Source: Pyxidicoccus parkwaysis
Lineage (GTDB): Bacteria > Myxococcota > Myxococcia > Myxococcales > Myxococcaceae
NCBI RefSeq assembly: GCF_017301735.1
Contig: NZ_CP071090.1
Coordinates: 7,182,001-7,246,000, forward strand
Reading direction: 5' to 3'
Length of the DNA: 64,000 nt
Within the stretch, counting starts at the first letter, position 1. Every line of letters starts with the position of its first letter. Shown here one piece after another: positions 22,979 through 48,396 of this stretch. A program made the translations under genes and the position numbers. Under the pieces are notes generated by a model, which was given only the letters and a program-made list of their open reading frames with translations, ran no database searches and was not told the origin of the DNA.

Positions 22979-25900
22979 CCGCTCCGCTCGCCGCGCTGCC
23001 CGGCTACACGACGTCGGGGTTCTTCGTCCTCCGCTCGCCCCTGCTGCCCTTCGACGCGCTCCTCGCCTGGAGCGCGGGCGCCGGCGAGGACCGTGCCCTG
23101 CTCCGCGGCCGCCTCGAGGAGAACCTCGCGCGCGGAGAGCTTCGCGAGGCGCTCTTCCTCGCTTCCCCTTCGCTCGACGAAGGCCTGGCCGAGTGGCACC
23201 GCGCGCCCGAGAGCGAGTGGGGCCAGAAGGTCGAACGCGCGCTGGTGCGCTACTGGCAGCGCATGGCCGCGCGGGCCACGCCCTTCGGCCTCTTCGCGGG
23301 CCACACCGTGGGCACCCTGGGCCCGAGCACCCGCCTCACGCTGGAGGCCCGCGAGACGTACCGCCGCCACACGCGGCTGGACATGGACTACGTCAGCGCT
23401 CTGTCGGAGCGACTCGCCCGCGAGCCCGCGCTGCGAGAGGCCCTGCGCTACCGGCCCAACTCCAGCCTCTACCGGAGCGCCGGGAAGCTGCGCTACGCCG
23501 AGTCGCACATGACGGGGCGCACGCGCGCCTACCAGCTGGTCGCCGTGGAGCCCACGGACTACCTGGAGGCCACGCTGGAGCGGGCCCGCCCCGGAGCGCC
23601 GCTCTCCGAGCTGGTCCAGGCCCTCGTCGACGCGGACCCCGACGTGGCTCGCGAGGAGGCGGAGGCCTACGTCAGCATGCTGGTGGACCACCAGCTCCTC
23701 GTGCCGGAGCTGCCGCCCCGCGTGACGGGCCCCGAGCCCCTCGATGAGCTGCTCGCGCGGCTGGCGCCCGTGCCCGCCCTGGTCGACTACCACCAGCGCC
23801 TGGAGCGCGTCCGGAGCGCGCTGGCGGACCTGGATGCCTCGCCTCCTGGCAGCGCGCCTTCTGTCTACCGCGCCATCGCCCGGGAGCTGGAGGCGCTCCC
23901 CACGCCCGTCGAGCCGAGCCGCCTCTTCCAGGTGGACCTGGTGAAGCCCGGCGCGGCGCTCACGCTGGGACCTCCGGTGGTGGAGGAGATGGCCCGGGGC
24001 GCGGCCCTGCTCCACCGCATCAGCCACGCCTCGGAGTCACCGTCCCTGCGCCGCTTCCGCGAGGCCTTCGTGCAGCGCTACGAGGGACGCGAGGTGCCGC
24101 TCGTAGAGGCGCTGGACGATGACGTGGGCATCGGCTTCGAGGCGGGCAATCCCATCTTCGCGGAGGGCAGCCCGCTCCTGCGGGGGCTCGACTTTCCCGC
24201 CGACGCCGCGGAGGCACGCCAGCCCTGGGGGCCGGGACAGGCCCACCTCCAGCACCGGGTGACGGAGCTGCTGCGCTCCGGCGCGCACGCATTGGAGCTG
24301 GACGAGGCGGACCTGAAGGCCCTGGAGAACCCACGGCCGGGCCCGCTGCCGGAGGCCTTCTCCATCATGGCGGGCGTGCTGGCCGCGTCCCCGGCGGACC
24401 TCGACGCGGGCAGGTTCCAGGTGGTGCTGGAGTCGGTGCTGGGGCCGTCCGGCGCGCTGCTGCTGGGGCGCTTCTGTCACGTGGATCCGGAGCTGCACCG
24501 GCACGTGGAGGCCCACCTGCGCACGGAGGAGGCACTGCATCCGGACGCGCTCTTCGCGGAGCTGGTCCATCTGCCCGAGGGGCGCGTGGGCAACGTCATC
24601 AGCCGCCCCGTCCTGCGCGACTATGAGCTCGTGTACCTGGGGCACTCAGGCGCGCCGGTGGCGAAGCAGATACCCATCACCGACCTGCGCGTCTCCGTCC
24701 AGGGCCGGCGCATCGTCCTGCGGTCCGCCAGCCTGGGGCGTGAAGTCCTGCCCCGCATGACACACGTCCACAACTTCGGCGGGGCCCACCTGCGGCCCTA
24801 CACCTTCCTGGCCACGCTCCAGCAGGAGGGCGTGTCCCCGGGCCTGCGGTGGACGTGGGGCCCGCTCTCCGACAGCGCCTTCCTTCCCCGCGTCACCGCC
24901 GGAAGGCTCATCCTCTTCCGCGCCCGCTGGCGCCTGCTGGCCACGACGCTGCGGGCCCTGGGCGAAGTGCCCGAAGCGGAACGCTTCCAGGCCACGCAGC
25001 GCCTCCGCGCCGAGCTGCGGCTACCCCGCTTCGTGGGTGTCGAGGACCGGGACAACGTGCTGCCCGTGGACCTGGACAACGCGCTGAGCATCGACACCTT
25101 CGTCCACCTGGTGAAGGACCGGACGCACGCGGTGCTGGTGGAGCTGCTCACGGAAGGGCTCTGCGTCCAGGGCCCCGAGGGGCGCTTCGTGCACGAGCTG
25201 GTGGTGCCCTTCGTGCGCACGACGCCCCTGGCCCGACAGCCGCCGCGCGCCACGTCGCCGGTGCGGCCCATTCCCATCGGCCGTGTCTTCGCACCGGGCT
25301 CGGAGTGGCTCTACGCGAAGCTCTACACGGGCACGGCCACCGCCGACGCCGTCCTGCGCGACGTGGTTGCCCCGGTGGCGAGGGAGGCGCTGGCCTCCGG
25401 CGCGGCGAACCAATGGTTCTTCATCCGCTACGGAGACCCGGACTGGCATGTGCGGGTGCGCTTCCAGGGCAACCCGGCGCGGCTCCGGACGGAGGTGCTG
25501 GCGCGTCTGCACGAAGCGCTGGCGCCGTCGCTGGGCGCGGGGCTCGTCCACCGCGTCCAGCTGGACACGTACGAGCGCGAGGTGGAGCGCTACGGCGGCG
25601 ACGAGGGACTCCTGATCTCCGAGCACCTCTTCCACGTGGACAGTGAAGCCGCGCTGGAGCTGCTCGACACCTGTGTGGGTGAGGCAGGCGCGGACGCGCG
25701 CTGGCGCCTCACGCTGCGTGGCATCGACGCGCTCCTCGATGACCTCGGCCTGGACCTGGAGGCCCGGCGTCAGCTCCTCGAGGGACTGCGCGAGGCCCAT
25801 GGGAAGGAGTTCCAGGTGGACGGCGCCTTCGAGCGGCAACTGGGCGAGCGCTTCCGCGCGCACCGCCGGGAGCTGGAGGCGCTGCTCTGGAATCCACCGT

Positions 25901-26160
25901 CTCCGGAGAGCCCGCTTGCACCTGGGCTGGCGGTGCTGCGACGGCGCTCGGAGCGCAACGCGCCGCTCATGGAGCGACTGAAGGCGCTCTCGCTCGAGGG
26001 GATGCTGGGGCAGCCGCTGCCCCATGTGGCGGCGAGCCTGGCCCACATGCATGCCAACCGGATGTTGCGCTCGGCCGCGCGGGCGCAGGAGCTGGTGCTG
26101 TATGACTTCCTGCACCGGCTCTACGAGTCGCGGGTGGCCCGCCAGCGCCGGGGAGTCTGA
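22975..26160 (+). CDS. lanB: Full-length lanthipeptide dehydratase, class I
   Basis: ATG 22975 overlaps the lanC stop; the protein has 1,061 residues, as expected for a full-length LanB. The N-terminal 750 or so residues form the glutamylation domain (SGFFVLRSPLLPF, RATPFGLFAGHTVG, YRPNSSLYRSAGKLRYAE). The C-terminal 300 residues are the SpaB-C/thiopeptide-type elimination domain (WLYAKLYTGTATADAVL, WFFIRYGDPDWHVRVRF). Both parts are present in one chain, unlike the split enzymes of thiopeptides. LanB transfers glutamate from glutamyl-tRNA to Ser/Thr of the precursor and eliminates it to give Dha/Dhb. Substrate: the divergent precursor at 21303-21449. No adjacent lanT-type ABC transporter or lanP protease is visible, so export and leader removal must be encoded elsewhere or carried out by general machinery. 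Confidence 0.92.
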   Translation: MTAPLAALPGYTTSGFFVLRSPLLPFDALLAWSAGAGEDRALLRGRLEENLARGELREALFLASPSLDEGLAEWHRAPESEWGQKVERALVRYWQRMAARATPFGLFAGHTVGTLGPSTRLTLEARETYRRHTRLDMDYVSALSERLAREPALREALRYRPNSSLYRSAGKLRYAESHMTGRTRAYQLVAVEPTDYLEATLERARPGAPLSELVQALVDADPDVAREEAEAYVSMLVDHQLLVPELPPRVTGPEPLDELLARLAPVPALVDYHQRLERVRSALADLDASPPGSAPSVYRAIARELEALPTPVEPSRLFQVDLVKPGAALTLGPPVVEEMARGAALLHRISHASESPSLRRFREAFVQRYEGREVPLVEALDDDVGIGFEAGNPIFAEGSPLLRGLDFPADAAEARQPWGPGQAHLQHRVTELLRSGAHALELDEADLKALENPRPGPLPEAFSIMAGVLAASPADLDAGRFQVVLESVLGPSGALLLGRFCHVDPELHRHVEAHLRTEEALHPDALFAELVHLPEGRVGNVISRPVLRDYELVYLGHSGAPVAKQIPITDLRVSVQGRRIVLRSASLGREVLPRMTHVHNFGGAHLRPYTFLATLQQEGVSPGLRWTWGPLSDSAFLPRVTAGRLILFRARWRLLATTLRALGEVPEAERFQATQRLRAELRLPRFVGVEDRDNVLPVDLDNALSIDTFVHLVKDRTHAVLVELLTEGLCVQGPEGRFVHELVVPFVRTTPLARQPPRATSPVRPIPIGRVFAPGSEWLYAKLYTGTATADAVLRDVVAPVAREALASGAANQWFFIRYGDPDWHVRVRFQGNPARLRTEVLARLHEALAPSLGAGLVHRVQLDTYEREVERYGGDEGLLISEHLFHVDSEAALELLDTCVGEAGADARWRLTLRGIDALLDDLGLDLEARRQLLEGLREAHGKEFQVDGAFERQLGERFRAHRRELEALLWNPPSPESPLAPGLAVLRRRSERNAPLMERLKALSLEGMLGQPLPHVAASLAHMHANRMLRSAARAQELVLYDFLHRLYESRVARQRRGV

Positions 26161-28240: not shown

Positions 28241-31200
28241 CTATCTGCGACGCCGCTGGTGCAGCGCGCGCCGAGCAGCGCCTCGTGCCGCCACATCCTT
28301 CAGCGCCTGCGCCTCCCCACTGTCGCCGGAGAGGAACGTGGAGAGCGCGCGGATGGTCGGATAGCGGAACAGGTCCACCAGCGTCAGTGGCCGTTCCACC
28401 TTCGACTTCAGCTTCTCCAGCACCTGCACCATCAGCAGCGAGTGCCCGCCCAGGTCGGCAAACTTGTCCTCCACACCCACCTTGTCGAGCTTCAACACCT
28501 CCTGCCAGATGCCGGCGAGCATCGTCTCCGTCTCGCTCTCCGGGCGCGTGAAGCCTCCGCGCGCCTGTGCCTGCTCCGGCGCCGGCAGCGCCTTGCGGTC
28601 CACCTTCTTGTTCGGCGTCTGCGGGAACGCGCTCAGCGTGACGAAGGCTTGCGGCACCATGTAGTCTGGCAGCCGTGAGCGCAGGAAGTCGCGCAGCGCC
28701 TCCGACGCCGGAGGCTCGCCCGGCTTCGCGATGAGATACGCCACGAGCCGCTTGTCGCCCGGAGTGTCCTCGCGCACCACCACCACCGTCTCGCGCACCG
28801 CCGGGTGCTCGCCGAGCCGCGCCTCGATTTCGCCCAGCTCGATGCGGAACCCACGCACCTTCACCTGATGGTCCAGGCGGCCGATGAACTCCACCACGCC
28901 GTCCTGCCGCCACCGCGCCGCATCCCCCGTGCGGTACATGCGCGCGCCCGGCCGCGAGGAGAACGGGTCCGCGACGAAGCGCTCGCGGTCCAGCTCCGGC
29001 CGCTGGTGATAGCCGCGCACCACACCCGCGCCGCCGATGTACAGCTCACCCACCGCGCCGATGGGCAGCGGACGCCGCCGAGCATCCAGCACATGGAGCT
29101 GCGTGTTCGCGATGGGCGTGCCGATGGGCACTCCCTCTCCCACATTCTTCACCGCGTACGTCGAGGACCAGATGGTCGTCTCCGTGGGCCCGTACATGTT
29201 GAGCACGTCACCGGACACGACCTCGGAAAGCTGCCGAGCCAGGGGGACGGGGAAGGCCTCGCCGCCCACCATCATCTTCTTCAGCCGCGTCAGGCCCGCG
29301 CGAGCACGCTCCTCGGCCAGCAGCATGCTCGCCTGCGACGGCGTGCACTGGAGGTGCGTCACCGCGTGGCGCTCCAGCAGCGCGGGCACGGAGCCATCCA
29401 CCCCGTCATCCTCCACCGGCTTCACGCCCGCGCTGGCGTTGGAGCGCTGGAGCACCTGGGCCAGCAGCGGCAGGTGCTTCATCACCAACTCCGTCGGCAC
29501 GCCGAAGTCCACGAGGCAGGCCACCTCGTCCACGTCCATGCCCTTCAGCTTGTCGACGAAGGCGACGCAGGCATCCACGCTGCCGAAGAGGCCGGACGTC
29601 TGGAAGTAGCGCTCGAAGGAGAACTCGAGCAATGCGTCCATCTCCTCGGCGGAGAGGTTGTCGGTGCCGAAGTTGCCATTGGCCAGCGTCGTCTGCGCCT
29701 TGAACGCCGGGAAGCTCCAGGCAGCCTCCTTGATGAGGCTCACCGACGACTTGAGGTACGCCTTCATCGGGCCGCGCACCACCTCCTTCACCGAGGCCTC
29801 GGATTCACCGACGAAGGTGTGCAGCATCAGCGTCACCGTGCCCTGCCCCCGGTGGCCTGCCTTGCGCCACGTCTCACGGTAGAGGGCAATCTTCTGCGCG
29901 ACTTCCTCTGGCGTCTGGCCGAGCAGGTGCGTCAGCACGTGACAGCCCGCGCGCGCAGCCTCTTCGAATGTCTCCGGATTGCCGGCAGTGGTGACCCAGA
30001 TGGGCAACTCCTTCTGCACGGGCCTGGGCAGCGTGCGCAGCTTCACCGTGCCGCCGGTGCCGCTCTTCGTCTCCAGCGTCTCGCCGCGCCACAGCCTGCG
30101 CACGTCTTCGATTTGCTGGAACATGACGCGCTTGCGGCCCGCGAAGTTCTCCGGCCGCAGCGCGAAGTCATTGGGCTGCCAGCCCGCCGCGAACGAGATG
30201 CCCACGCGGCCGTGGGAGATGTTGTCCACCACGGCCCAGTCCTCGGCGATGCGCAGCGTGGGGTGCAGCGGCGACACGAGGCTGCCCGCACGGAGCTGCA
30301 CGTTGCGAGTCACCGCCGCCAGAGCCGCCGACGTCACCGCCGGGTTGGGGAACAGTCCGCCGAAGGCATGGAAGTGCCGCTCCGGCGTCCACACCGCGCG
30401 GAAGCCATTCGCGTCCGCGAAGCGCGCGCTCTCCAGCAGCAAATCGTAGCGCCCCTCGGGCCGCTCGCCCTCGTCGCTGGAGAAGTAGAAGAGGCTGAAG
30501 TCCATCGCGCGCGAGCCGTGCTTCCCCTCCTGCGCGCCGCCGTGCCGCTCCGCGTGGATGACCACCGTGAAGCCACGGGTGAGCGTCCACAGGAGCTCCA
30601 GCACGGAGATGTCGAAGTTGAGGCTGGTGACGGCGAGCCACGTGCCACGCTCCGTGCCCAGGCGCTCGTCCATGCCGAGGCCGAAGTTCACGAAGTTGCG
30701 GTGCTCAATCATCACGCCCTTCGGGCGGCCCGTGCTGCCGGAGGTGTAGATGACATACGCAAGGCTGTCGGGCCCGGCCGGAGGCGTCTGAGCATCTTCG
30801 GAAGCAGCAATGCGCTCCCACGCCGAGTCCACCGCGAGCACCTGCCGCGCGGCCCGGGGCACCTGCGCGAGCAACCGCTCCTGCGTGAGCACCAGATGGC
30901 AGCCCGAGTCCTCCACCATGAAGGCGATGCGCTCCGCCGGGTACGCCGGGTCCAGCGGCACGTAGCAACCGCCCGCCTTGTGGGTGGCCACCACGCCCAC
31001 CATCATCTCCAGTGAGCGCTCCATGAAGATGCCCACGCGCACGTCGCGGCCCACACCCGCGCCGCGCAGATGGCGGGCGAGCTCGTCGCTGCGCTCATCC
31101 AGCTCGCGATACGTCAGCGACGTGCCCCGGCAGATGAGGGCCGTCGCGTCAGGAGTGCGCTGTGCCTGAGCCCGGAAGAGCGAATGGAAGGTGGCGTCCC

Positions 31201-32908
31201 CAGGTAGCTCGCGGGTGGTGTCGTTCCACTTCGCGAGCAGCGCACGCTCCTCCGCGCCCAGCAGGTCGTGCTCGTCCAGGGGCCTGCCAGGAGATTCACG
31301 CAGTGACGCGAGGAACGCGGAGAGCTGGCGAGACAGTTCGGAGACGCGGCCCTGCTCCACCCGTGAGGCGTCGAAGAGCCACTGCGCCTGGGTGCCCTCC
31401 GCGTCCACGACGACGGTGAGCGCCGCGCCGGGCACGGCATGGCCCAGCTCCCCCGGCGCGGAGATGCGCAGGGCGACGGGATAAGCCACTTCACCCATGT
31501 GGCGCGACAGCCCGGCGAGCTGAGGTGAGCGGCCGAGCAAATCCCTCGACATGACGCCCTTCTCGCGAAGCTGCGCCAGCGCCTTGCGGAATGCGGATGC
31601 CGCGGCCTCCGGCGCCTCCTTCATCGGCAGCGCCAACCGGAGCGGGAGCTGCGAGGCGAAGAAGCCCTCCACGTCCCGCACCCGAGCGCGCGTACCGGAG
31701 TCACTGAAGCCCACGTCGAAGCGCGGCTCGGGAGACAGGCGCGACAGGAAGGCCGCAGCGGTGAAGAGGAGCCGCTCGTCGGGCGGCAGGTCCGAAGCCC
31801 AGCCCGAGGCAACCTCGCTGACAGAGAGCGTCAGCGAGTGCGTGCCCTCCTCCTTCGAGCTTCCGCCCAGGAACGGCAGGTCCGGAGGCGCCAGCGTCTC
31901 CAACCGCCCGAGGAAGAACGCCTCCGCCTTGCCCGCCACCGTGCCCACTTCAGTCAAGCGCGCGAGCAACTCCGGAGAGACCGGCTGCAGCAAATCACCC
32001 ACCGCGAGGTTGCGCGAGCCCAGCAACTCGGCCCACGACAGCGGCGCGCCGCACAGTCCCTTCGGCCCCTTCAACACGAGGTCGCCACCGCCGAAGGCCA
32101 GCGTCAGCGCGTCGCCCTCAATCGCGACGATGTAGCCCGGGCTCGCGTCGGAGCCCTCCTCCACCCGGAGCGCTTCGGACACGGCCACCGGCGCGCTGCC
32201 CAGCCACAGCTTCGCGAAGGCGAGCGGGTTGGGATAGCCACCGTAGTCCAGCGCCGCCACCAGCGCGCGCGCATCCTCCACGTCGCCATGCGGGTCCAAC
32301 AGCGCCGCCGCGTCCGGCCGCTTCGCCATGCCGAAGTAGCTGCGCCGGGAGAAGTCCTGCTCGACGGAATCCACGCGGCCTTCGACGAGCTCGGCGGCCA
32401 GCTCCGCGAAGGTCTCCATGCCCAGCGTGTAGCAGCGCGCGTTGAGGCTGAAGGCCGTCTCGTTGGGCGCGAGCTCGAAGAGGCGCTGCTTGAGGATGCG
32501 CCCCTTGTCCGCGCCCGAGGTCATCTCGTGCCACGTGACGCCGTGCTGGGACTCGCGGTGCAGCAGCGCCCACGAGGTGACGTTGAGGCCCGCGTAGCGC
32601 GGCAGCGGACCGTCGTGGAAGTTGATGGCCATGCGACGCGGAAGCCGCAGCACCTCGTCCTTCACCAGGCTCAGGTTGACGATGCTGAAGAGCCAGTCGA
32701 AGGGCGTGGCGGAGAGGAAGGGCAGCACTCCGTCCCCAGGCGGCACGTGTTGAATGCCCTGGGCCTCCGCCCACTTCTGGAGGGACGGCTCGCGGGTGAC
32801 GAGCCCGAGAATCCGCACGCCGTGCTCCTGGAGCGCCTCGGCGCAGGGGACGACGAGGGTGCCCTCTCCGATGATGAAGCAGGAAGGCGACTCGACGGTC
32901 GCGGTCAT
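28241..32908 (-). CDS. NRPS: formyltransferase - partial condensation - adenylation interrupted by luciferase-like monooxygenase - carrier
   Basis: The protein has 1,555 residues; ATG 32908 overlaps the preceding hydrolase stop by 4 bp. Residues about 1-300 are a formyltransferase domain with the Asn-His pair (INFHDGPLPRYAGLN) and the catalytic Asp (GADKGRIL). About 345-545 resemble only the C-terminal half of a condensation domain; no HHxxxDG is present. Adenylation starts near 570 (IYTSGSTGRPKGV near 719, FDISVLELLW). It is interrupted at about 799-1129 by a luciferase-like monooxygenase of the natural-product type (TPERHFHAFGGLFPNP, GISFAAGWQPNDFALRPENF). It then resumes (MYGPTETTIW, YRTGDAARW, NKKVDRKALP). 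A carrier domain follows (DLGGHSLLMVQ, Ser near 1484). Hand alignment of the specificity pocket gives D-I-L-Q-M-G-M-I-W, close to the glycine code DILQLGLIW. The module probably activates glycine, formylates and/or oxidises it, and passes it to the adjacent PKS. Confidence 0.9.
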   Translation of the reverse strand: MTATVESPSCFIIGEGTLVVPCAEALQEHGVRILGLVTREPSLQKWAEAQGIQHVPPGDGVLPFLSATPFDWLFSIVNLSLVKDEVLRLPRRMAINFHDGPLPRYAGLNVTSWALLHRESQHGVTWHEMTSGADKGRILKQRLFELAPNETAFSLNARCYTLGMETFAELAAELVEGRVDSVEQDFSRRSYFGMAKRPDAAALLDPHGDVEDARALVAALDYGGYPNPLAFAKLWLGSAPVAVSEALRVEEGSDASPGYIVAIEGDALTLAFGGGDLVLKGPKGLCGAPLSWAELLGSRNLAVGDLLQPVSPELLARLTEVGTVAGKAEAFFLGRLETLAPPDLPFLGGSSKEEGTHSLTLSVSEVASGWASDLPPDERLLFTAAAFLSRLSPEPRFDVGFSDSGTRARVRDVEGFFASQLPLRLALPMKEAPEAAASAFRKALAQLREKGVMSRDLLGRSPQLAGLSRHMGEVAYPVALRISAPGELGHAVPGAALTVVVDAEGTQAQWLFDASRVEQGRVSELSRQLSAFLASLRESPGRPLDEHDLLGAEERALLAKWNDTTRELPGDATFHSLFRAQAQRTPDATALICRGTSLTYRELDERSDELARHLRGAGVGRDVRVGIFMERSLEMMVGVVATHKAGGCYVPLDPAYPAERIAFMVEDSGCHLVLTQERLLAQVPRAARQVLAVDSAWERIAASEDAQTPPAGPDSLAYVIYTSGSTGRPKGVMIEHRNFVNFGLGMDERLGTERGTWLAVTSLNFDISVLELLWTLTRGFTVVIHAERHGGAQEGKHGSRAMDFSLFYFSSDEGERPEGRYDLLLESARFADANGFRAVWTPERHFHAFGGLFPNPAVTSAALAAVTRNVQLRAGSLVSPLHPTLRIAEDWAVVDNISHGRVGISFAAGWQPNDFALRPENFAGRKRVMFQQIEDVRRLWRGETLETKSGTGGTVKLRTLPRPVQKELPIWVTTAGNPETFEEAARAGCHVLTHLLGQTPEEVAQKIALYRETWRKAGHRGQGTVTLMLHTFVGESEASVKEVVRGPMKAYLKSSVSLIKEAAWSFPAFKAQTTLANGNFGTDNLSAEEMDALLEFSFERYFQTSGLFGSVDACVAFVDKLKGMDVDEVACLVDFGVPTELVMKHLPLLAQVLQRSNASAGVKPVEDDGVDGSVPALLERHAVTHLQCTPSQASMLLAEERARAGLTRLKKMMVGGEAFPVPLARQLSEVVSGDVLNMYGPTETTIWSSTYAVKNVGEGVPIGTPIANTQLHVLDARRRPLPIGAVGELYIGGAGVVRGYHQRPELDRERFVADPFSSRPGARMYRTGDAARWRQDGVVEFIGRLDHQVKVRGFRIELGEIEARLGEHPAVRETVVVVREDTPGDKRLVAYLIAKPGEPPASEALRDFLRSRLPDYMVPQAFVTLSAFPQTPNKKVDRKALPAPEQAQARGGFTRPESETETMLAGIWQEVLKLDKVGVEDKFADLGGHSLLMVQVLEKLKSKVERPLTLVDLFRYPTIRALSTFLSGDSGEAQALKDVAARGAARRALHQRRRR

Positions 32909-33738
32909 TCAGTGACTCCGGACTGCGAGAAGGATTTCGAGGCCTCGGCGAGGGCGGCGGGATGCTTCAGCAACTCCGCGTGCCCCACGCCCTGGAAGGA
33001 GTGGAAGGGCGCTCCCAGCCTGCGCGCGAGCTCTTCACCATGAGCCGGAGGCAGCGCCGCATCCGCCAGTCCATGCAGCACCCGGACGGGCGGCAGGCCC
33101 TCGGACACGAGCGAGAGGTTGTCGTAGCGGTCCGGCGTGCGCAGCAGGCCGCACAGCCCCTTGTCCGTCACATCCATCAACGTGAAGGGAGCAAGGAGCA
33201 CGACACCTCGTGCTGGCCGCCCATCCTTCGCCAGCGCGTGCGCCGCCGCGAGCGCCGCGTTGCTCCCCATGGAGAAGCCCACGAGCTGGAGCTCTTCCGG
33301 CCGGTGCGTGGCGACGAGCCAGCGCACCGCCGCCTCCGCCCCAGCACGAAGCGACTGCGGTGACGGCCTGCCAGGAGAGCCATCGAAGCCCGGCGGTGCA
33401 ACCGCCGCGAGCCCGAAGCCACGCCCGGCATCCAGCGCCTCCAGCACGGAGCGCGCCTCTTCCAGATAGCCGGGGCCGTTGCCTCCGAAGAAGACCAGCC
33501 ACCGCGTCTGGCCCGGCGCGGGAGCCCGCGTCAGCGCGCGCTGGCGCGGCGGCCCATTGACATCGCTCAGCGTCCATCCACCCGCAGTGAGCCGTGCCTC
33601 CGAGCCGGAGGCCAGGGGCGCACCGTCATAGGGAAACGGCCCGGGCGCCTCCGAGCGTCTGTCCAGCCAACCGAACTTCAACACGACGCCCCCCAGGGCG
33701 GCCGCGAGCGCCGCCACGCCCATGTCCCGGCGATTCAC
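32905..33738 (-). CDS. Alpha/beta hydrolase between the PKS and NRPS genes
   Basis: The protein has 277 residues. Its ATG overlaps the PKS stop by 4 bp and its stop overlaps the NRPS start by 4 bp, so the three genes are translationally coupled. The nucleophile elbow is GFSMGSNAALAAAHALA; a likely acid Asp lies in GLADAALPP and the His in GVGHAELLKHP. The N-terminus (MNRRDMGVAALAAALGG) carries two Arg before a hydrophobic segment, suggesting a membrane anchor or signal (a weak twin-arginine resemblance). It could act as a proofreading thioesterase or a product-modifying hydrolase; the substrate is not visible. Confidence 0.85.
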   Translation of the reverse strand: MNRRDMGVAALAAALGGVVLKFGWLDRRSEAPGPFPYDGAPLASGSEARLTAGGWTLSDVNGPPRQRALTRAPAPGQTRWLVFFGGNGPGYLEEARSVLEALDAGRGFGLAAVAPPGFDGSPGRPSPQSLRAGAEAAVRWLVATHRPEELQLVGFSMGSNAALAAAHALAKDGRPARGVVLLAPFTLMDVTDKGLCGLLRTPDRYDNLSLVSEGLPPVRVLHGLADAALPPAHGEELARRLGAPFHSFQGVGHAELLKHPAALAEASKSFSQSGVTE

Positions 33739-36700
33739 TTGCGGCCCACCTGTTGTGCTTCGTCCAGCGCCGCGCGCAGCAGGCCACCGAGGATGTGGAC
33801 GTTGGGCTCGCGCACCAGGCTGTCATGGTCGCCGGGCACCTCGCGGATGCGCAGCGACGGCACCAGCGGCGCCCAGCCCAACGTCGCGCCCATGTGCGAG
33901 TAGATGGGGTTGACGTCCTGCGCGCGGAACAGCGTCACCGTCCCGGAGTAGGGGCGCGGGGTGTAGCGGCTCGACAGGAGCTGGAAGCGCTCGGTGAGCT
34001 GGAGGTCTCGTAGCTCGATGGGCAGCGGCTCACCGCGCTGCTCGTACCAGCGCAGCTTGATGGAGTTGATGAGCCGGTTGCCGTCGCGCTCCACCTTCTT
34101 GCGCAACCGGTCCTTGAGGTAGGCCGCCGCGCCCTCGTCGAGCACTGCGCGCATGCGCTCGTCGAAGGTGAGCCGCCGCTCCTGGGTGGCGGGATGGAAG
34201 GTGTCGAGGAAGGCGAGCAGCGCCACCTCTTCGCCCTGCTCGCGCAGCCGCTGCGCCATCTCGTAGGCGACGACGCCTCCGCCGGAGTATCCACCGAGCA
34301 GGTAGGGGCCGCGCGGCCTCAACTGGCGGATGCCCTCCAGGTAGATGTTCGCCATCTCCTCGATGCTGTCCGCGGGCGGGAGCTTTCCGTCCACGCCGCG
34401 CGCCTGGAGCCCGTAGAAGGGCTGCTCCTTTCCGAGCGAGGCCGCGAGGTCGCGGAAGTTGAGGACGTTGCCGCCCGCACCGTGCACGCAGAAGAACGGA
34501 ATGCCAGAGCCGCCCTTCTGGATGGCGACGAGCGGCGTCCACTCCTTCGACACGGGCGCGGAGGCCACAGGGGCCGGTGTGCCCGGAACGGTGTCCGGCG
34601 TGAAGGGAATCCCGGCCGCCTCGCGCACGAGCGCCGCGCACTGCTCCAGCGTAGGGGCCTCGAACAGCGTGGCCAGCGTCAGGTCCGCGCCGAGCAGCTT
34701 CTTGATGCGCGCGAACAGGCGCACCGCGATGAGCGAATGCCCGCCGAGGTCGAAGAAGTTGTCCTTGAGCCCCACCCTCGGGACGCCGAGCAACTGCTGC
34801 CAGAGCTCCGCGAGCTTGCGCTCCACGTCGTCGCGCGGAGCGTCCGCGGCCGAGGCCTGCTGTGCCGTGACCGCACCTTGCTGCGCGGCCACGGGCTTCT
34901 CCGCCTCCTGCTTCGGACGCAGGCGCGCCGCCAGTCCGTGCAGGTCCATGGAGCTGACGAACAACGCCGACGTACCGGCAAGGGACAGCGCGCGCAGGAA
35001 GACCTCCTGGCCCTCGGCGGGCTTGATGCCCAGCGGCAGCCACGTCTCCAGCAGCGAGCCCTTCTTCTGCGGCGAGCGGCCGAAGCGCTTCGCCTCGACG
35101 GCGGCGACGAGGTAGCCCTCGATGGAGCAGAAGACACGGCCGTCCGAGTCACACAGGGTGACGTCGAGCAGCGCCCCACGACCCTCCTCCTGGCGCACGC
35201 GCACGTGGCTCAGCGCCACCTCGGGCCACGGTCCCCATACGCGCAGGTGCCGGTAGGAGACTGGCACGTGCAGCTTCCCGGGCTGCACCGCATCCGGCAG
35301 CAGCGAGAAGGCGAAGCCGGAGGCAATGTCCAGCAGCCCGGGCGGCAACGCATACGTCGCCAGGTCTCCGAGCAGCGCGCGAGGAAGCTCCAGTCGCGCG
35401 AGCGCCTCGGATGCACCGAAGCCCGCCGAGCGCAGCACCTTCCAGCGCGGCCCGAAGGCAATGAGTGAGTCCTGCGGCAGGACCTGTTCGCCTTCTCCGA
35501 ACGTGAGCGGCCGCACCGTGCAGCGCGAGCGCACCGTGCTCACATCCAGCGGCGCGGGAGGTCCCTCCACCGCTGCACCCAGGCGCGCGGTGGCATGCTC
35601 CACCCAGGCGCTACCGGCGGCACGGCTCGAGACGCGGAATGTGAAGCCATCACCCTCCGAAGCCAGCGCCACCTCCACCTCGCGCACCTCGCCATCAGGC
35701 ACGTCGAGCGGCGCGACGAAGGCGAGATGGTCCACGTGCAGCGACGCGCCCGGACGCACCGTCTCCCAGGCCGCGCGCGCCAGTTCCACGTAGCCCGTGC
35801 CCGGAAGCACCGGCCCGCCGCCGCGCATGCGGTGCTCATCCAGCACCCACAGGGCCTTCGCGTCGTAGATGGCACGGAAGACATGCTGGCCCTCGGGAGC
35901 GTCCACGCGCCGCTGCAACAGCGGGTGGGCCACCGACTCGCCCGGAGGAAGCCGGGGCGCCACCTGGGCCGCGGCCATGCCCACCTCCTGCCAGACACCC
36001 CACCCCAGCGCGAGCGCACGCTTCGCCGTGCCGGAAGCCTCCAGTCGCGCCGCCTGGGCCAGCAGGAACGCATTGGCCGCGACGTAGTCCACCTGTCCCG
36101 GAGGACCGAGGTGCGCGCTCGTCGAGGAGAAGCTCACGAAGAAGTCGAGCTGTGCGCCGCGCAGCGCCTCCTCCAGCGCGAGCGCACCGAGCGCCTTGGG
36201 CGCAAGCACCCGCAGCGCCGAGTCCCGAGTCTTCGACTCCAGCGGCCCGTCTTCGAGCCCACCCGCCGCATGCACCACTCCATGCAGCGCACCGAAGCGC
36301 GACTTCACCTCGGCGATGGCGGCCCGGAGCTGGCCCGCGTCCGAAGTGTCCGCCTTGAGCAACAGGACCTCGGCACCCAGGCCCTCCAGCGTGCGCTGCA
36401 CCTCCGCATGCGAGGCACTGGCAGCGGAGCGGGACACGAGCGCGAGCCGGGCCTTCGCCTTGCGCGCGAACAACTCCGCGAGCGTCCGGCCGATGCCACC
36501 GAGTCCGCCGGTGATGAGGTACACGCCGCGCTCACGCAGGGGCGTCGGTGCCTCCTGCAACGCGGTCCGCTCCAACACCTGCACGAGCCTGCGGCCACCG
36601 CGTAGCGCCACCGGCACGTCCACCTCCGCGCGCAGCAACTCGTCCGCCAGCTCGCGGGCCTGCGTCGCCGGAGCGGCGCTCACGTCGACATCCACCGCGC

Positions 36701-39700
36701 GTGCGGACAGCTCGGGCAGCTCCTTCGGCGCCACGAGGACCGGACCGAAGGCCAGTGCCTGCTCGGGCGTCCGCGCGGGCCCATCCACCGCCATGCCGCC
36801 CCGCATCACCCGCACGTAGCGCAGCCCGGCGGGCAGAGACTCGGCCGTCAGCGACTGCATCAGCGCGAGCGGCGTGAGGAAGTGACGCGACACCGCGCGC
36901 TCCCATGCCCCCGCGTCCACGCCCGGCAGGTCCACCAACCTCTGAGGCACACGCCCCTCCGCGCCCAGCGCATCCCAAAGCGCTTCCCAGTCCTCGCGCG
37001 CATCGGGCCGCAGGGTGAACGCCCCATCCGGCCTCCGAGCGAACGCCTCACCCGGGAACACCCGCTGCACACGCGCGCCTCGGGCCGCCAGCTCGCGAGA
37101 CAGTTCCTCCGCGAGCGGCTCCTCCTCCGTCAGCAACAGCCAGCGCTCGTTCTCCGCCGGAGCCTCCGGCCTGGGCCCGGGCTGCTCGCGGAAGCGCGGC
37201 ACATAGCCCCACCGCGACACATCCTCCTCGCGCACCAGCGGACGCTCGCCCTCGCGCCGGGCCATGAAGTAGCCCGTGCCCGGCTCCACCCAGTGGCGCT
37301 CGCGCTCGAAGGCATAGGTCGGCAGGCCCACGCGCCGCCGCTTCTGCCCCGCGAAGAGCGCCGCCGCGTCCAGATTCACTCCGCTCGCCCACAGGCGTCC
37401 CAGCGCGAGCTGGAAGAAGGCCAGGTCCGCGACGGTGTCATTCGGGTGCCGCAGCGAAGGCACGAGCCCCTCGGCCAGGGGCTTCTCTCCCTGCGCCCGT
37501 AGCAGCGACAGCAGCGTCTGCCCCGGCCCCACCTCCAGGTACACGCGGGCCTTGTCCGCGAGGAGCACGCCCGCCCCTTCCGCGAAGCGCACCGGCTGGC
37601 GCAGATGGCGCACCCAGTAGTCGGGAGACGTGGCCTCCTCGGGCGCAACCCACGTCCCCGTGACGTTGGAGACCCACGGCATCTTCGGCGCGGAGAGGCG
37701 CACCTTCGTCGTCAGGTACTCACGGAAGGGCGCCAGAATCGGCTCCAGCATCCGCGAGTGCGCGGCGACACGGATGTGCAGGCGCCGGGCCTCCACCTCG
37801 CGCGCCTTCAACTGTGCCTCCAGCGCGTCGATGGCCGCCACCTCGCCCGACACGAGGCACAGCCCCGGCGCATTGTGCGCGCCCAGGTCCAACCCCGGCC
37901 CGAGCAGTGGCTTCAACTCCGCCTCGGGCAACTCCACGCTGAGCATGGCCCCAGCAGGGAGCCCGTCGAAGAGCCGCCCCCGGCACGCGACGATTCCCAA
38001 CGCGTCCTTCACGGAGAACACGCCGGCAAGCTGGGCACACGCGTACTCGCCCATGCTGTGCCCCAGGCACGCGGCGGGCGTCACCCCACGCGACCTCCAC
38101 AGCGCGGCCAGCGCCAGCTCCACGGACAGCAGCGCCGGCAGTGCATACGTCGCCTGCTCGAGCTGCTCACGGGCCTCCGCCTCCTTGCCGGCCTCGGGGA
38201 ACAGCAGCGGGCGCAGCTTCAATGACTCGTGCTGCTCCAGCAGAGACAGGCACTCATCCAGCGCGCGGCGGAACACGGGCTCCTGCTCGTAGAGCCCCTT
38301 CGCCATGCCCGGGTACTGCGCGCCGCCGCCGGGGAACAGGAACACCACCGAGCGTCCCTCGGCCTCGGTGTGGGCCTGCGCCGTGCGGGCCGGCTCGGGC
38401 TGTTCCAAGAGGCGGACAGCCTCCTCGCGCGAGGCCGCCACCACCGCGCGCCGGTGCGCGAAGCGGCGCCGCCCCGTCAGCAGCGTGAAGGACACATCTC
38501 CGAGGTTCGGCGCCCCCTCCTCTCCCAACCGCTGCGCGAGCCGGCGGCTTGCACGCTCCAGCGCGGCCGGTGTGCGGGCGGACAACCAGAGCGTCTCGAA
38601 GGGACGCGCAGCGGACGTCGCGGGCTGCGCCGGAGCCTCCTCCAGGATGACGTGCGCGTTGGTGCCGCCCACGCCCAGCGAGTTCACCGCCGCGCGCCGG
38701 GGCCGGCCTCCCTTGGCCGTCCACTCGCGCAGCGTGGCATTCACCACGAACGGCGTGCGCGCGAAGTCGATTTGCGGATTCGGCTTCTCGAAGTGGAGGC
38801 TCGGCGCGAGCTGCCGGTGCCGCAGCATCTGGATGACCTTGATGAAGCTCGCCACGCCGGCCGCCGTGTCCAGGTGGCCGATGTTCGTCTTCACCGAGCC
38901 GATGCGGCAGTACCCGCTCTTCTGCGTCTGCGTGCGAAAGGCCTGGGTGAGCGCGGTGATTTCAATCGGGTCGCCCACCGGCGTGCCCGTGCCGTGGCAC
39001 TCGACGTAGTCGATGTGATCCGCGCTGACGCCGGAGACATTGAGCGCCTCCACCACCGCATCCGCCTGCCCGTCCACGGACGGCGCGAGGTAGCCCACCT
39101 TGCGCGCGCCATCGTTGTTCACCGCACTGCCCTTCACCACCGCGTACACGGTGTCGCCATCTGCCAGCGCGTCCTCCAGCCGGCGCAGCGCCACCACGCC
39201 CACGCCGCTGCCGAAGAGCGTCCCCTGCGAGCGGTGGTCGAACGCGCGGCAGTGCCCGTCCGGAGAGAGGATTTCCCCCTCCTGGTACAGGTAGCCCCGG
39301 TAGTGCGGCAGCTCCAGCGTGACGCCGCCCGCGAGGGCCAAATCACACTCGCGCGCCAGCAGGCTCTGCACCGCCGAGTGGATGGCCACCAGCGACGTGG
39401 AGCACGCCGTCTGCACGTTGACGCTGGGCCCGCGCAAGTCGAGGCAATACGAGACGCGCGTGGTGAGGAAGTCCTTGTCGTTGCCCGTGTGCCGCGCGAG
39501 GAACAGGCCCACCTGCTCCATCAACCGCGGGTTCGTGAAGAGGTGGTACGGCATGTACGCATTCATGCCGGAGCCGCCGAAGACGCCGATGGGGCCCTTG
39601 AAGGACTCGGGCAGGTGGCCGCAGTGCTCCAGCGCCTCCCAGCACACCTCCAGGAAGTGCCGGTGCTGCGGGTCCAGGATGGACGCCTCGCGCGGGCTGA

Positions 39701-39953
39701 AGCCGAAGAAGCCCGCGTCGAAGTCCTCCAGCCCCTCGAAGACCATGCCGGCCTTGACGTAGTTCGGGTCCTTCAGCAGGGACGGGTCCACACCCGCGGC
39801 GAGGAGCTGCGCGTCGGTGAACCACGTCACCGAGCCCACGCCGTCGCGCACGCGGCGCCAGAAGGCGTCCACGTCCCGCGCCCCCGGCAGCCGCGCGGCC
39901 ATTCCAACGACCGCGATATCTGGCGACTCCGAGCCCTCGACTTCATCCGTCAT
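33735..39953 (-). CDS. One-module type I PKS: KS-AT-KR-DH-ACP-TE
   Basis: ATG 39953 (MTDEVEGSES) has AGGGA 6 nt upstream; the protein has 2,072 residues. The KS shows the active-site Cys in TACSTS (near 186) and the His motifs CHGTGTPVGDP and NIGHLDTAAG. The AT has GHSMGEYACAQ (near 632) and VAAHS at the specificity position, which is neither the usual HAFH nor YASH. The KR (near 1147) has GGLGGIG and the Ser/Tyr/Asn set (SSTSAH...DYVAANAF). The DH follows the KR, with His in EHRMRGGG (near 1371) and Asp in GLLDIASG (near 1541). The ACP has DLGGHSL (near 1736). The TE has GYSGGG (near 1891) and GDHDSL. KR before DH is not the canonical order. It should add one C2 unit to the aminoacyl starter, reduce and dehydrate it, and release the chain. 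The TE makes this the last module although its gene comes first. Confidence 0.92.
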   Translation of the reverse strand: MTDEVEGSESPDIAVVGMAARLPGARDVDAFWRRVRDGVGSVTWFTDAQLLAAGVDPSLLKDPNYVKAGMVFEGLEDFDAGFFGFSPREASILDPQHRHFLEVCWEALEHCGHLPESFKGPIGVFGGSGMNAYMPYHLFTNPRLMEQVGLFLARHTGNDKDFLTTRVSYCLDLRGPSVNVQTACSTSLVAIHSAVQSLLARECDLALAGGVTLELPHYRGYLYQEGEILSPDGHCRAFDHRSQGTLFGSGVGVVALRRLEDALADGDTVYAVVKGSAVNNDGARKVGYLAPSVDGQADAVVEALNVSGVSADHIDYVECHGTGTPVGDPIEITALTQAFRTQTQKSGYCRIGSVKTNIGHLDTAAGVASFIKVIQMLRHRQLAPSLHFEKPNPQIDFARTPFVVNATLREWTAKGGRPRRAAVNSLGVGGTNAHVILEEAPAQPATSAARPFETLWLSARTPAALERASRRLAQRLGEEGAPNLGDVSFTLLTGRRRFAHRRAVVAASREEAVRLLEQPEPARTAQAHTEAEGRSVVFLFPGGGAQYPGMAKGLYEQEPVFRRALDECLSLLEQHESLKLRPLLFPEAGKEAEAREQLEQATYALPALLSVELALAALWRSRGVTPAACLGHSMGEYACAQLAGVFSVKDALGIVACRGRLFDGLPAGAMLSVELPEAELKPLLGPGLDLGAHNAPGLCLVSGEVAAIDALEAQLKAREVEARRLHIRVAAHSRMLEPILAPFREYLTTKVRLSAPKMPWVSNVTGTWVAPEEATSPDYWVRHLRQPVRFAEGAGVLLADKARVYLEVGPGQTLLSLLRAQGEKPLAEGLVPSLRHPNDTVADLAFFQLALGRLWASGVNLDAAALFAGQKRRRVGLPTYAFERERHWVEPGTGYFMARREGERPLVREEDVSRWGYVPRFREQPGPRPEAPAENERWLLLTEEEPLAEELSRELAARGARVQRVFPGEAFARRPDGAFTLRPDAREDWEALWDALGAEGRVPQRLVDLPGVDAGAWERAVSRHFLTPLALMQSLTAESLPAGLRYVRVMRGGMAVDGPARTPEQALAFGPVLVAPKELPELSARAVDVDVSAAPATQARELADELLRAEVDVPVALRGGRRLVQVLERTALQEAPTPLRERGVYLITGGLGGIGRTLAELFARKAKARLALVSRSAASASHAEVQRTLEGLGAEVLLLKADTSDAGQLRAAIAEVKSRFGALHGVVHAAGGLEDGPLESKTRDSALRVLAPKALGALALEEALRGAQLDFFVSFSSTSAHLGPPGQVDYVAANAFLLAQAARLEASGTAKRALALGWGVWQEVGMAAAQVAPRLPPGESVAHPLLQRRVDAPEGQHVFRAIYDAKALWVLDEHRMRGGGPVLPGTGYVELARAAWETVRPGASLHVDHLAFVAPLDVPDGEVREVEVALASEGDGFTFRVSSRAAGSAWVEHATARLGAAVEGPPAPLDVSTVRSRCTVRPLTFGEGEQVLPQDSLIAFGPRWKVLRSAGFGASEALARLELPRALLGDLATYALPPGLLDIASGFAFSLLPDAVQPGKLHVPVSYRHLRVWGPWPEVALSHVRVRQEEGRGALLDVTLCDSDGRVFCSIEGYLVAAVEAKRFGRSPQKKGSLLETWLPLGIKPAEGQEVFLRALSLAGTSALFVSSMDLHGLAARLRPKQEAEKPVAAQQGAVTAQQASAADAPRDDVERKLAELWQQLLGVPRVGLKDNFFDLGGHSLIAVRLFARIKKLLGADLTLATLFEAPTLEQCAALVREAAGIPFTPDTVPGTPAPVASAPVSKEWTPLVAIQKGGSGIPFFCVHGAGGNVLNFRDLAASLGKEQPFYGLQARGVDGKLPPADSIEEMANIYLEGIRQLRPRGPYLLGGYSGGGVVAYEMAQRLREQGEEVALLAFLDTFHPATQERRLTFDERMRAVLDEGAAAYLKDRLRKKVERDGNRLINSIKLRWYEQRGEPLPIELRDLQLTERFQLLSSRYTPRPYSGTVTLFRAQDVNPIYSHMGATLGWAPLVPSLRIREVPGDHDSLVREPNVHILGGLLRAALDEAQQVGRK

Positions 39954-40004
39954 GCCGGTTCCCTGTCCCCCACGGCAGGTGCCCACGCACCGCCCTCGGG
40001 GAGG

Positions 40005-40209: not shown

Positions 40210-40530
40210 TCATCGTGTTTCGCCCAGCAGCCCCCTTGCCGGCGACACATCGACGAAGCGGCGCCTGCTCGCATCGAACTGCAAATCCGAAACAGGCACC
40301 TGCCCCAACAACACGCCATGACCCATCACGGCTTCCCAGGGCCCTTCCTCGGGGGGACGCTGCGAGACAGCGTACACAGAGAAACAAGGACCGTAGTCAT
40401 CCCGCTCCTCATCGAATGGACAATCAAAAACGAAGTTCCGGTCCCCAATCTCTACCGCGAACAACCGCGGCACATCATAGAACTCCCGATACCGGATGGG
40501 GATCCAATCCCGACTCGTATCATCGCTCAT
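40210..40530 (-). CDS. Probable immunity protein for the RHS toxin
   Basis: The protein has 106 residues; its ATG overlaps the RHS stop by 4 bp (ATGA). It is small, acidic and soluble-looking, with aromatic-rich blocks (YREFYDVPRLFAVEIGDRNF, GPCFSVYAVSQRPPEEGPW). I recognise no family. Assignment as immunity rests on position: a small gene translationally coupled to the 3' end of a polymorphic-toxin gene is the standard arrangement for cognate immunity. It shares the lower GC of the toxin tip. Confidence 0.7.
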   Translation of the reverse strand: MSDDTSRDWIPIRYREFYDVPRLFAVEIGDRNFVFDCPFDEERDDYGPCFSVYAVSQRPPEEGPWEAVMGHGVLLGQVPVSDLQFDASRRRFVDVSPARGLLGETR

Positions 40531-43500
40531 TTGATTCGGAGTTTAGCAGGAACAGGGTTTGGACGCGGCGCCGAGAAGCAAGACCCCCCCTCGCAGACAT
40601 TCACGTGCCTGGGATTGATTGTTCCTGACCTCGTCGGTTCAGGGGCAACCTCAACCCTACCTCCGCTGGCCCGAATCTCCCCGGCCGTAGTGGTTCGAAT
40701 GGTTCCATGAGGAACACCCGCGGCAGCCTCCTCCAGCGTCGCTCCTTGAGAGCCAGAAAACACCTGACCTGGCTCAGGCATCGGGCTCGAGCCTCCGCGG
40801 ACTACAGTGTACGAATCCGGGACGTCTCCGGGTGCATGCGGGCCAAGAACAGTAGCCGCAGTGGGCGGGCCAATCTTCGCATCGATCGCATTGAGAGTCA
40901 GACTGATGAGATCTGTTGACTCACCGGTCTTATTATCGACAACAACAAAGGCGGGAGCCTCCGCGGCCACAAGCATATCCCCCGCCGTTTTGAGCCAATC
41001 CCTCTCCTGAGACTCGCCTTCAGGCTTCGCTGCAATCTGCTTCGCCGACTGCCAGCCCCGACTCAGACAATCCAAGAAGTCCGAAACACCATCGAAACCA
41101 CAAAGGCCGTCCGGGTCGGCAATCGAAACAGGATTTCCATACGCGTACCCATAGACTGGGGGCGGAGTCCCTTCCTTCACTTTGCTCGCCACCCATCCCG
41201 GCTCTGACAGCTTCGGCTCGGGCGCCAGGTACCGGCCGCTCCCCGCGTCGTAGTACCGGTTCCAGTTCTCGAAGAGGTCCGTCTCCGCGTCGTAGTACTG
41301 GCCGGGCATCCGCAGCGGCAACCACACGGGCTTGGTGCCGGGCTCGAAGCGCCGGTACTCGAAGCCGGAGAGGTGGACCTCCGTGTTCGTCTGGTCGGTA
41401 TCCGGCCGCATGTACAGCGTGAAGGCGCCACCGGCCGGAGTCGTGGCCCAGCCCCGGGTGGTGAAGTGGATGTGGAGGCCGCCGTAGTCATAGCCACTCC
41501 ATGAGTCCAGCTGCGCTCCCGTGCCGTCGGCGAGGTACACGGCGGCCTGGCCCTGGGTGGAGGCCCATTCGAGCCGCGCACGCACCTGCGTGACGAGCGC
41601 CGGACTGTAGGGCGCCTGCATCGTGGCAACGGGCGCATCGAAGAGGTTTCGAGCGGAAGCGAAGCGCGTGGTGCGGTTGACGTGACCAAAGGGCTCGTAG
41701 TCCCCCACGCCCGCCACGCGGCCACCGGAGGTGAGGAGCAGCACCGGTTTGCCCAGCCCATCCGTCACCGGGTAGTAGGTGCCGCAGGGCACGTCCGACT
41801 CGAGTCCGAAGCGCGAGCAGTCACCCGCGTTGTCGGGCTTGCGCAGGAAGGGCGAGTGGTCGAAGCGCGACTTGACGACAGCCACCGGGCGCCCATCCAG
41901 CCACACGTACTCGTCCAGCACGTATTCCGTGGTGCTGGGGTTGGCCCCCGTGTGGCCCACGTCCACCATCAACTGGGTGCCGGCGTAGAAGTACTCGTCC
42001 TCGCGCCCGTCCCAGCTGCGCTTCAGGCGACGCCGGCCGTTGGCGTCGTAGAAGTACTCGTAGCTGCGCTGGGCCCCGCCCTGCTCGGTGGCCACCACCT
42101 GGCGGTAGACGCTCCCTTCCTCGTCGTGGGACCACGAGCGGGAAGCGCCCAGGTCCAGCGTGAAATAGGGCTGGGTCGAGGAGGCCGTGAGGTACGAGGC
42201 CACCTGCTTCACGCGGCCATCAGCATCATGCGCGTAACGCGAGGTAACGCCATAGGAGAGACAGCCTGCCTGTCCGACGGGGCAGGTGGGGGGCTGGGCC
42301 TTGCGCGCGGTGAGCTGGTCCACGCGAGGGAACGCGCCGTCGTACTCGCTCTGCACGGTGAAGCCGTTGAAGGTCTCCTGCGTGCGGTTGCCTCGCGAGT
42401 CGTAGGCATACGAGACGTCGGAGAAGGCCCCGCCCGTGCTGGAGAGGTTCCTGGCGCGGACCAGCTGGAGACGGGAGTCATAGCCGCGCTCTCCGCTGGG
42501 GCCGAAGTAGGCCTGCGACGCGGCGGTGCCCGACGAGCTCAGGATGCACGTCGCCTCCTGCGACAGCTGGTCGGCGTTGTACACGTAGCCGCGCTTGAAG
42601 ATGTCACCCACCACGCCCGTGCTCAGGCGAGACACGCTCAGTCCCGCGAGCCGCCCGGAGACGTCCCCCGCGTTGAGCACGGTCTGCTGGAAGGCCAGCG
42701 GCGCGCAGCTGGAGAAGCTCGTGTTGGAGCCCCCCCGGTGGTAGGCCACGCGCACGAGCGCTTCGTGACCGGCGGCGCCGCGCGAGTGCGTCAGGTACGA
42801 GCTCAAGCCACCATAGGGCTCCCACTGCACATCGCTGATGAGCAGGTCGTTTTCGGAGGAGCCGTCCGCATTGAGGTTCGCCGCCTTGATGGCGGAGATG
42901 CGGTGGGGCTGGCCACTGGAGGCCGGGTAGTACTGGTACTCGATAGCGCGCCCATAGGGATAGATTTCCCACGCCAGGCGGCCCGCGGCGTCATAGCCGA
43001 AGATGTGGTTGGGTTTGTCCTTGCCGGAGAAGTAGGGACTGGTGTCGCACGCCAGGCTGGGGGGTTGCGTCTGCGTGCCACGCACCCGGTATCGGGCCAC
43101 CTCGCGCCCCAGGCCGTCGTAGGCGAACCAGGTGGCGCCGAACGAGTCGAGCAGGACGTGGGGGCTTCCGGGCCTCGCGGCCGGACAACCGGTGGGCGCC
43201 TCCTGCACCTCACCCTCGTACCAGTACTGGAAGAGGCGCTCGGTGAGCGCACCGGGACGGTGGGACTCGGCCCATATCAGGCGGCCCAGGGCGTCGTAGC
43301 GGTAGCTCATCCAACTGCCCGTCTGGGCCATCTGGGGCGTCTGCTTCTCGGTGAGGTTGCCGGCCTCGTCGTAGGCATAGCGGAAGAGGCCACGACCGGG
43401 CGGCATCGTCTCCGCCTCGGGCGCGCCCAGGCCCCAGGGGGCCTTCAGCTCCAGGAGGTTGCCGAAGTCGTCATGGAGGTACTCCGCGACCGGCTGCCCG

Positions 43501-48298: not shown

Positions 48299-48333
48299 GC
48301 CGCTGGACGCTAGCGTGCGTCACCCCGTGAAAC

Positions 48334-48366: not shown

Positions 48367-48396
48367 TTACTTCTGCAACACCGGTGAAAACACGGC

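Follow-up and report, generated by a model that had tools for sequence, protein, structure and literature searches.

Based on their sequences, the nonribosomal peptide synthetase (NRPS) and polyketide synthase (PKS) genes of a minus-strand operon in Pyxidicoccus parkwaysis are members of a co-inherited family of gene pairs that crosses phyla, with representatives in the same genus (Myxococcus in what follows), in one further genome of the phylum (G182), on alphaproteobacterial plasmids and on one Deinococcus plasmid. The operon, in which an alpha/beta hydrolase gene stands between the two, occupies positions 28241-39953 of the 64,000-nucleotide stretch analysed here (contig NZ_CP071090.1, 7,182,001 to 7,246,000; hereafter the window). 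We consider the case evenly balanced that the pair forms a two-module, chain-terminating line, which would join formyl-hydroxyglycine to one extension unit and deliver the resulting acyl unit to surface polysaccharide in the relatives and to an envelope target in Myxococcus.

The architecture of the operon agrees with the original prediction, which was made from the letters of the window. The three genes were said to overlap by 4 bp each, and the coordinates in the list of open reading frames (ORFs) confirm this at both junctions (minus-strand limits 33735-39986, 32905-33738 and 28241-32908). We prefer the PKS start ATG at 39953 to the GTG at 39986, because the homologous genes of two other genomes open with MTEDVEG. 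Matches in Pfam and NCBIfam place formyltransferase (FT), adenylation (A), luciferase-like monooxygenase (LLM, or MOX where its activity is meant) and carrier (T) domains in one protein, as had been claimed. Those to ketosynthase (KS), acyltransferase (AT), ketoreductase (KR), dehydratase (DH), phosphopantetheine carrier (PP; the acyl carrier protein, ACP) and thioesterase (TE) families, with KR preceding DH, identify the PKS as the expected single reducing module with its own thioesterase; this domain content also supports the view that the whole line consists of two modules. The operon is not a chance arrangement, since NRPS and PKS are under purifying selection (dN/dS 0.12-0.23 in 6/6 pairwise strain comparisons); the hydrolase gene evolves faster (0.13-0.41). 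Degeneration into pseudogenes was ruled out by these ratios together with motif conservation.

Along the NRPS, Pfam recognizes Formyl_trans_N (residues 81-167 only), AMP-binding in two stretches on either side of Bac_luciferase, AMP-binding_C and PP. The inserted LLM belongs to TIGR04020, the MupA/Atu3671 LLM family (residues 804-1152, 510 bits against a cut-off of 244), and lies within the A domain between motifs that we take to be of the A4 and A5 types. The whole genome contains eight TIGR04020 domains above the cut-off and 111 condensation-domain matches. Among solved structures, the closest LLM is PuwE (365 bits), a protein of the puwainaphycin pathway. PuwE (PDB 6ket) is a separate protein of 362 residues, whereas here the LLM is embedded in the A domain.

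The ten-residue code of the A domain, DILQMGMIWK, is of the published glycine-MOX signature type: four MOX-bearing glycine domains surveyed in PMC12283262 each have DILQLGMIWK (for this and the other papers cited, our statements refer to parts of the text). The pattern DILQxGM[I/V]WK is found in 31/31 aligned rows (the window and 30 relatives), with M at position 299 in 20 rows, F in four, L in four, A in two and C in one, and V at position 330 in a single row. The window's genome has two further A domains interrupted by an LLM, with the codes DILQMGMIWK and DILQLGMIWK (a code could be read at these two of the seven other LLM places, the A matches at the remaining five being incomplete), and 12 A domains lacking an LLM had different codes, with one or two positions unread in six cases. 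These results bear out the near-glycine pocket that had been aligned by hand, and a formylated product, also foreseen, agrees with the conservation of the FT motif Asn-x-His...Asp in 30/31 rows, the exception being L122, which has a separately annotated formyltransferase gene. A formyl-glycine starter is therefore well supported at the sequence level. The nearest solved relatives of the FT are ArnA, which ranks first, and sugar N-formyltransferases, aligning from about residue 71. The initiation module of linear gramicidin (LgrA) uses a different amino acid and is not known to have a MOX or a PKS. It resembles the present NRPS in that its F domain acts on the first amino acid while this is bound to the carrier (as cited in PMC4504003).

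Residues 330-560 of the NRPS have no Pfam match, and a 13-row family profile of this segment aligns to the C-terminal half of condensation (C) domains from the same genome (hhalign, probability 97.9, E 5e-13). Because the alignment covers template columns 195-448, the lobe with the HHxxxDG motif is missing, as expected for a starter module. Judged by these sequences the NRPS is a formylating starter module of the F-A-T kind, with its FT ahead of a half C domain and no working C domain.

The same combination of a glycine A domain and a MOX is known from modules that end a chain rather than begin one, for which we take MtaG to be the gene name. These terminal modules of myxothiazol and melithiazol also have the MOX between A4 and A5 (PMC10204066), as found here, where AMP-binding is split around residues 804-1152. 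They differ in closing a long chain, with a following TE that hydrolyses the glyoxylyl left behind (PMC10204066); a working C domain, a TE and amide release characterize such end modules, whereas in the window the NRPS is a formylating starter that has half a C domain and lacks a TE. If gene order were working order, the PKS would act first and the NRPS would end the chain as in the amide release of myxothiazol. This reading would suit a PKS that is the first gene of the operon and a MOX that is MtaG-like in kind and place, but it conflicts with the TE being on the PKS and with the half C domain of the NRPS, and it is rejected, as highly improbable, by the architecture in Aliiroseovarius, where C-A-T-TE follows the PKS module. 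There (L114:22480-31728) a single gene encoding KS-AT-KR-DH-ACP-C-A-T-TE, with an extra C-A-T before the TE, comes after the FT-A(LLM)-T gene. In Methylobacterium (L120) the NRPS and PKS genes share a strand, the NRPS coming first. From these two gene orders, the TE on the PKS and the lack of a whole C domain on the NRPS, we read the line as NRPS, then PKS, then TE.

The most likely MOX chemistry, by analogy, is hydroxylation of C-alpha. In myxothiazol and melithiazol, the glycine modules follow this step with cleavage of the carbinolamide, leaving a glyoxylyl thioester (PMC10204066, PMC11342130), and SolF of the solanimycin pathway similarly pairs a glycine module with a flavin monooxygenase to give alpha-hydroxyglycine, which solanimycin B retains (PMC10204066). 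SolF differs in having its MOX between A8 and A9 and in acting mid-chain, and the term "formyl" is absent from the text of that paper. An N-oxidised product, which the original prediction had also considered, is not supported by these characterised modules, all of which hydroxylate C-alpha, and N-oxidation was set aside on that analogy.

In the two-module line that we favor, the A domain would load glycine onto the T domain, the FT would formylate the amine of the T-bound glycine, and the inserted MOX would hydroxylate C-alpha of the carrier-bound formyl-glycine. The KS would then accept the formyl-hydroxyglycine starter and extend it once, probably with malonyl, after which KR and DH would yield an enoyl thioester and the TE would release the product. 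This product would be 4-formamido-4-hydroxybut-2-enoate, a masked aldehyde, or 4-formamidobut-2-enoate if the MOX step were skipped. Its backbone is the C4-type amino-enoate of the original prediction, which we retain as an inference. A rather unlikely variant follows myxothiazol more closely: formyl-alpha-hydroxyglycine would break down into formamide and glyoxylyl-S-T, formylation would serve the oxidation only, and the PKS would extend glyoxylate to 4-oxobut-2-enoate, a reactive aldehyde. The carbinolamide route by which the myxothiazol and melithiazol modules arrive at a glyoxylyl thioester (PMC10204066, PMC11342130) speaks for such cleavage and the hydroxyglycine kept in solanimycin B (PMC10204066) speaks against it, while sequence favors neither cleavage nor retention.

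The other product considered in the original prediction, an oxazole-like unit, is not supported. Conglobatin provides the precedent: its CongA, grouped with the oxazolomycin starters and the F domains of rhizopodin, is a formyl-glycine starter feeding a PKS (PMC4504003), and the F-A(Gly)-T logic is common to both lines. Conglobatin also has a separate putative cyclodehydratase, CongE, and four expected PKS extension modules, and no MOX is mentioned in the parts of the paper covered (PMC4504003). No cyclodehydratase of the CongE/OzmP type was recognised among 16 Pfam-scanned neighbours in the window (five of them without a family), where no search was aimed at one, and a MOX would presumably oxidise the carbon needed for the ring. 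We set this reading aside on both counts and regard its probability as very small.

The PKS appears equipped for its part in the two-module line. Cys/His/His of the KS, Tyr of the KR, His and Asp of the DH, Ser of the ACP and Ser/Asp/His of the TE are kept in 26/26 aligned rows, and the active-site motif of the AT is GHS in 25/26 and AHS in L114. The KR has LED or xDD in 23/26 rows, a B-type-like signature that would, by the usual rule, favor an E double bond. Malonyl as the extender is a default assumption and not a result.

Co-inheritance of the two genes is seen at several taxonomic levels. When the hydrolase was used as a query against 145 genomes of the order, 97 had some match, and 16 places were operon-type (E 6e-76 or better; matches from the next one, at 6e-30, onward were dropped as generic hydrolases), all within the 27 genomes of the window's genus. 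Among the genomes searched the operon is thus confined to one genus of its bacterial family. PKS and NRPS flank the hydrolase in 15/15 copies other than the window's own; named carriers are Pyxidicoccus caerfyrddinensis, Pyxidicoccus fallax and Myxococcus sp. RHSTA-1-4. The FT-C part was found in 24/195 genomes of the phylum, namely the 16 operon carriers, G002, G182, five genomes with giant ORFs and one weak match (G194). The giant ORFs (14,189-14,476 aa, in G055, G077, G102, G110 and G113) have a stretch resembling the FT-C remnant at 32-35% identity, and G114 has two further FT-C-like places in shorter ORFs. In G182 the order is PKS, a hydrolase-like middle gene, NRPS and then a UDP-GlcNAc 2-epimerase gene; the middle gene resembles the hydrolase over 83 residues (E 5e-7) and has no Pfam family. 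Among plasmids, 15 records, all from Alphaproteobacteria, match the NRPS over at least 80% of its length, with 39.5-44.7% identity. Both genes are present in 11/11 alphaproteobacterial loci compared block by block, and, within the best 40 of 193 records, 13/14 top-ranked PKS rows fall in records that also carry the NRPS, the remaining one being a Tateyamaria plasmid whose record opens with an NRPS fragment. Paired records from Aminobacter (H23, H24) and Paracoccus (H33), and the fragmented H49, are outside the loci inspected. The Deinococcus plasmid has a separate FT, an A(LLM)-T and a PKS with a C domain at its end, all inside a capsule cluster.

Phylogenetic trees show the same relationships. 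The LLM tree, which is midpoint-rooted and has long branches for Deinococcus and several of the ten other LLMs included, unites 26 pair members in a clade (96/95) that excludes those ten, seven of which come from the window's genome. In the KS tree a single clade (100/99) holds 25 members, divided into the same three subgroups; one of these, Deinococcus-Aliiroseovarius-Methylobacterium, has support of 98/95 for KS and 94/87 for LLM. Pairwise KS and LLM distances are strongly correlated (Mantel r 0.969, 25 rows, reached by 0/2000 permutations), also with a single Myxococcus row (r 0.938, 15 rows, 0/2000). The LLM and the KS of the window both belong to the pair clades, and their genes are neighbours.

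Outside Myxococcus, the pair is mostly surrounded by genes for glycosyltransferases, sugar transferases, flippases or export, often together with a phosphopantetheinyl transferase. A uniform tblastn count found at least three exopolysaccharide (EPS) gene places in 13/15 non-myxobacterial pair loci versus none in 7/7 control stretches (LLM loci of Nostoc, Streptomyces and Burkholderia glumae, plus four stretches from other parts of four of the same plasmids); the count left out L123 (14.5 kb) and four of 12 flanking stretches (L135-L138). The middle place of the hydrolase is held by a glycosyltransferase in 6/8 Rhodobacterales loci opened. These surroundings suggest that in the relatives the product is probably destined for a surface polysaccharide. 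Pfam identifies glycosyltransferases, Wzy and a FemAB-like protein beside the G002 NRPS, at a place where the EPS tblastn queries gave none. FemAB/GNAT-like proteins adjoin the NRPS in G002 (L110:993-2750) and lie near it in Deinococcus (L125:14846-15892), with 30% identity over the aligned part, and are, on sequence grounds, candidate transferases for the acyl unit. A Paracoccus polysaccharide cluster holding the pair also contains a second NRPS gene (L115:1-2555). RkpA of Sinorhizobium is a PKS-like or fatty acid synthase-like protein tied to a capsular polysaccharide locus and is not known to be paired with an NRPS. Among the open-access papers listed by full-text searches on this subject (for one search, 15 of 61 matches), judged by title and opening of the abstract, we found none describing an NRPS-PKS pair as a supplier of a polysaccharide substituent; a Phaeobacter genome paper mentions a PKS and NRPSs and, in the parts covered, does not show the pair (PMC4062626).

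A number of observations weigh against the proposed line and its link to polysaccharide. The DH has DxAxG in 24/26 rows at the site of the usual DxxxQ/H and so lacks the Gln/His, and the glycine motif is altered in 5/6 KRs of Hyphomicrobiales (L111, L116-L119). The solved AT closest to that of the PKS is ZmaA-AT (253 bits, AAHS common to both), a hydroxymalonyl-ACP enzyme (PMC4207774), and the first RXR position of the AT is Arg/Lys in 0/26 rows; a hydroxymalonyl gene set was not seen in the annotated loci, where no search was aimed at one. G002 has the NRPS and, on its 20-kb contig, no PKS. Among the pair loci, Aliiroseovarius (L114) has no EPS places and Methylobacterium (L120) has one. Four LLM loci without a fused FT had been opened as controls, and Deinococcus was moved from them to the pair loci once its PKS, FT and place in the tree had become known; excluding it gives 12/14. 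The EPS query proteins came from three of the 15 loci (self-hits removed) and the loci include related strains, so the association is a strong tendency and not 15 independent events. The window itself does not lie in a recognizable exopolysaccharide locus: no glycosyltransferase, flippase or export genes were recognised beside the pair, tblastn gave no EPS places in the window, nor in eight flanking stretches from four further genomes of the genus (alphaproteobacterial queries may miss distant genes), and Pfam found no EPS families among the 16 window neighbours (five without a family) or ten neighbours in G118. We found no chemical or genetic data for any pair member.

A serious possibility, though short of an even one, is that the chemistry is as proposed and the Myxococcus product is a diffusible small metabolite, the amino-enoate or its aldehyde, with no polysaccharide link. 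EPS genes were not recognised near the Myxococcus operons inspected; in the window the surrounding genes are for LanBC, an RHS-like protein and efflux, while G118 has DNA polymerase III, metG and an MscS-type channel in this position; and the middle gene encodes a hydrolase, not a glycosyltransferase. Against a diffusible product stand the common descent with pairs that are mostly in EPS loci and the lack of an exporter gene among the three genes of the operon. If the product is instead an envelope substituent, the same acyl unit probably goes, in Myxococcus, to a target encoded elsewhere. Spore-coat terms for M. xanthus occur only in the reference list of PMC2875238, in titles on glycine incorporation into the coat, and we make no claim from them.

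The features of the operon are listed in Table 1. Convergent with it, at 21698-26160 (plus strand), Pfam identifies a LanC-like gene and a full-length lantibiotic dehydratase with N and C parts; LanC/lantibiotic-dehydratase-like genes are also near the operon in G114 and G108. Immediately upstream of the PKS lies an RHS-like protein (40527-46550, minus strand; identified by reading its translation), with no match over half its length in the Myxococcus stretches compared. A plus-strand ORF of 1662 aa (41682-46670) was taken, from the translations, as an antisense artefact over this gene. Further on, a likely efflux operon (47396-51900, minus strand) encodes in a row a Phenol_MetA_deg-family protein, HlyD, an MFS transporter and a TetR regulator (Pfam).

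Table 1. Genes and domains of the operon, in window coordinates.
Feature	Position	Strand	Evidence and remarks
PKS gene, KS-AT-KR-DH-ACP-TE, 2072 aa	33735..39953	-	ORFs, Pfam; catalytic residues compared in 26 rows
KS domain	38787..39920	-	Pfam; Cys-His-His in 26/26 rows
AT domain, GHSMG and VAAHS motifs, malonyl assumed	37377..38345	-	Pfam, alignment, structure comparison
KR domain, LED motif, catalytic Tyr present	35985..36527	-	Pfam, alignment
DH domain after KR, His and Asp conserved, DxAxG in place of DxxxQ/H	35088..35927	-	Pfam, alignment
ACP domain	34629..34817	-	Pfam, alignment
TE domain, Ser/Asp/His present	33777..34496	-	Pfam, alignment
Alpha/beta hydrolase gene, 277 aa, hydrophobic N-terminus	32905..33738	-	Pfam; N-terminus by reading the sequence
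NRPS gene, FT - half C domain - A(LLM) - T, 1555 aa	28241..32908	-	Pfam, NCBIfam
FT region	31949..32908	-	Pfam, motif alignment, solved-structure comparison
C-domain remnant, C-terminal half, catalytic motif absent	31229..31921	-	hhalign probability 97.9
A domain, first part	30551..31177	-	Pfam, code alignment
Inserted LLM/MOX, TIGR04020	29453..30499	-	NCBIfam
A domain, second part	28589..29395	-	Alignment; whole code DILQMGMIWK, glycine type
T (carrier) domain	28331..28519	-	Pfam, alignment

Taking the family as a whole, we tentatively propose, while considering it somewhat doubtful, that the NRPS-PKS pair is a polysaccharide-tailoring system in three phyla, in which a formylated hemiaminal enoyl unit would be attached to extracellular polysaccharide and may cross-link it to amines or thiols, the Myxococcus pair being detached from glycan genes. 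The line is short enough to be rebuilt in vitro, which makes the oxidation of formyl-glycine at C-alpha and the hand-over to the KS directly testable. If the proposal is true, a two-module NRPS-PKS would be devoted to supplying the extracellular polysaccharides of several bacterial groups with a non-sugar substituent.

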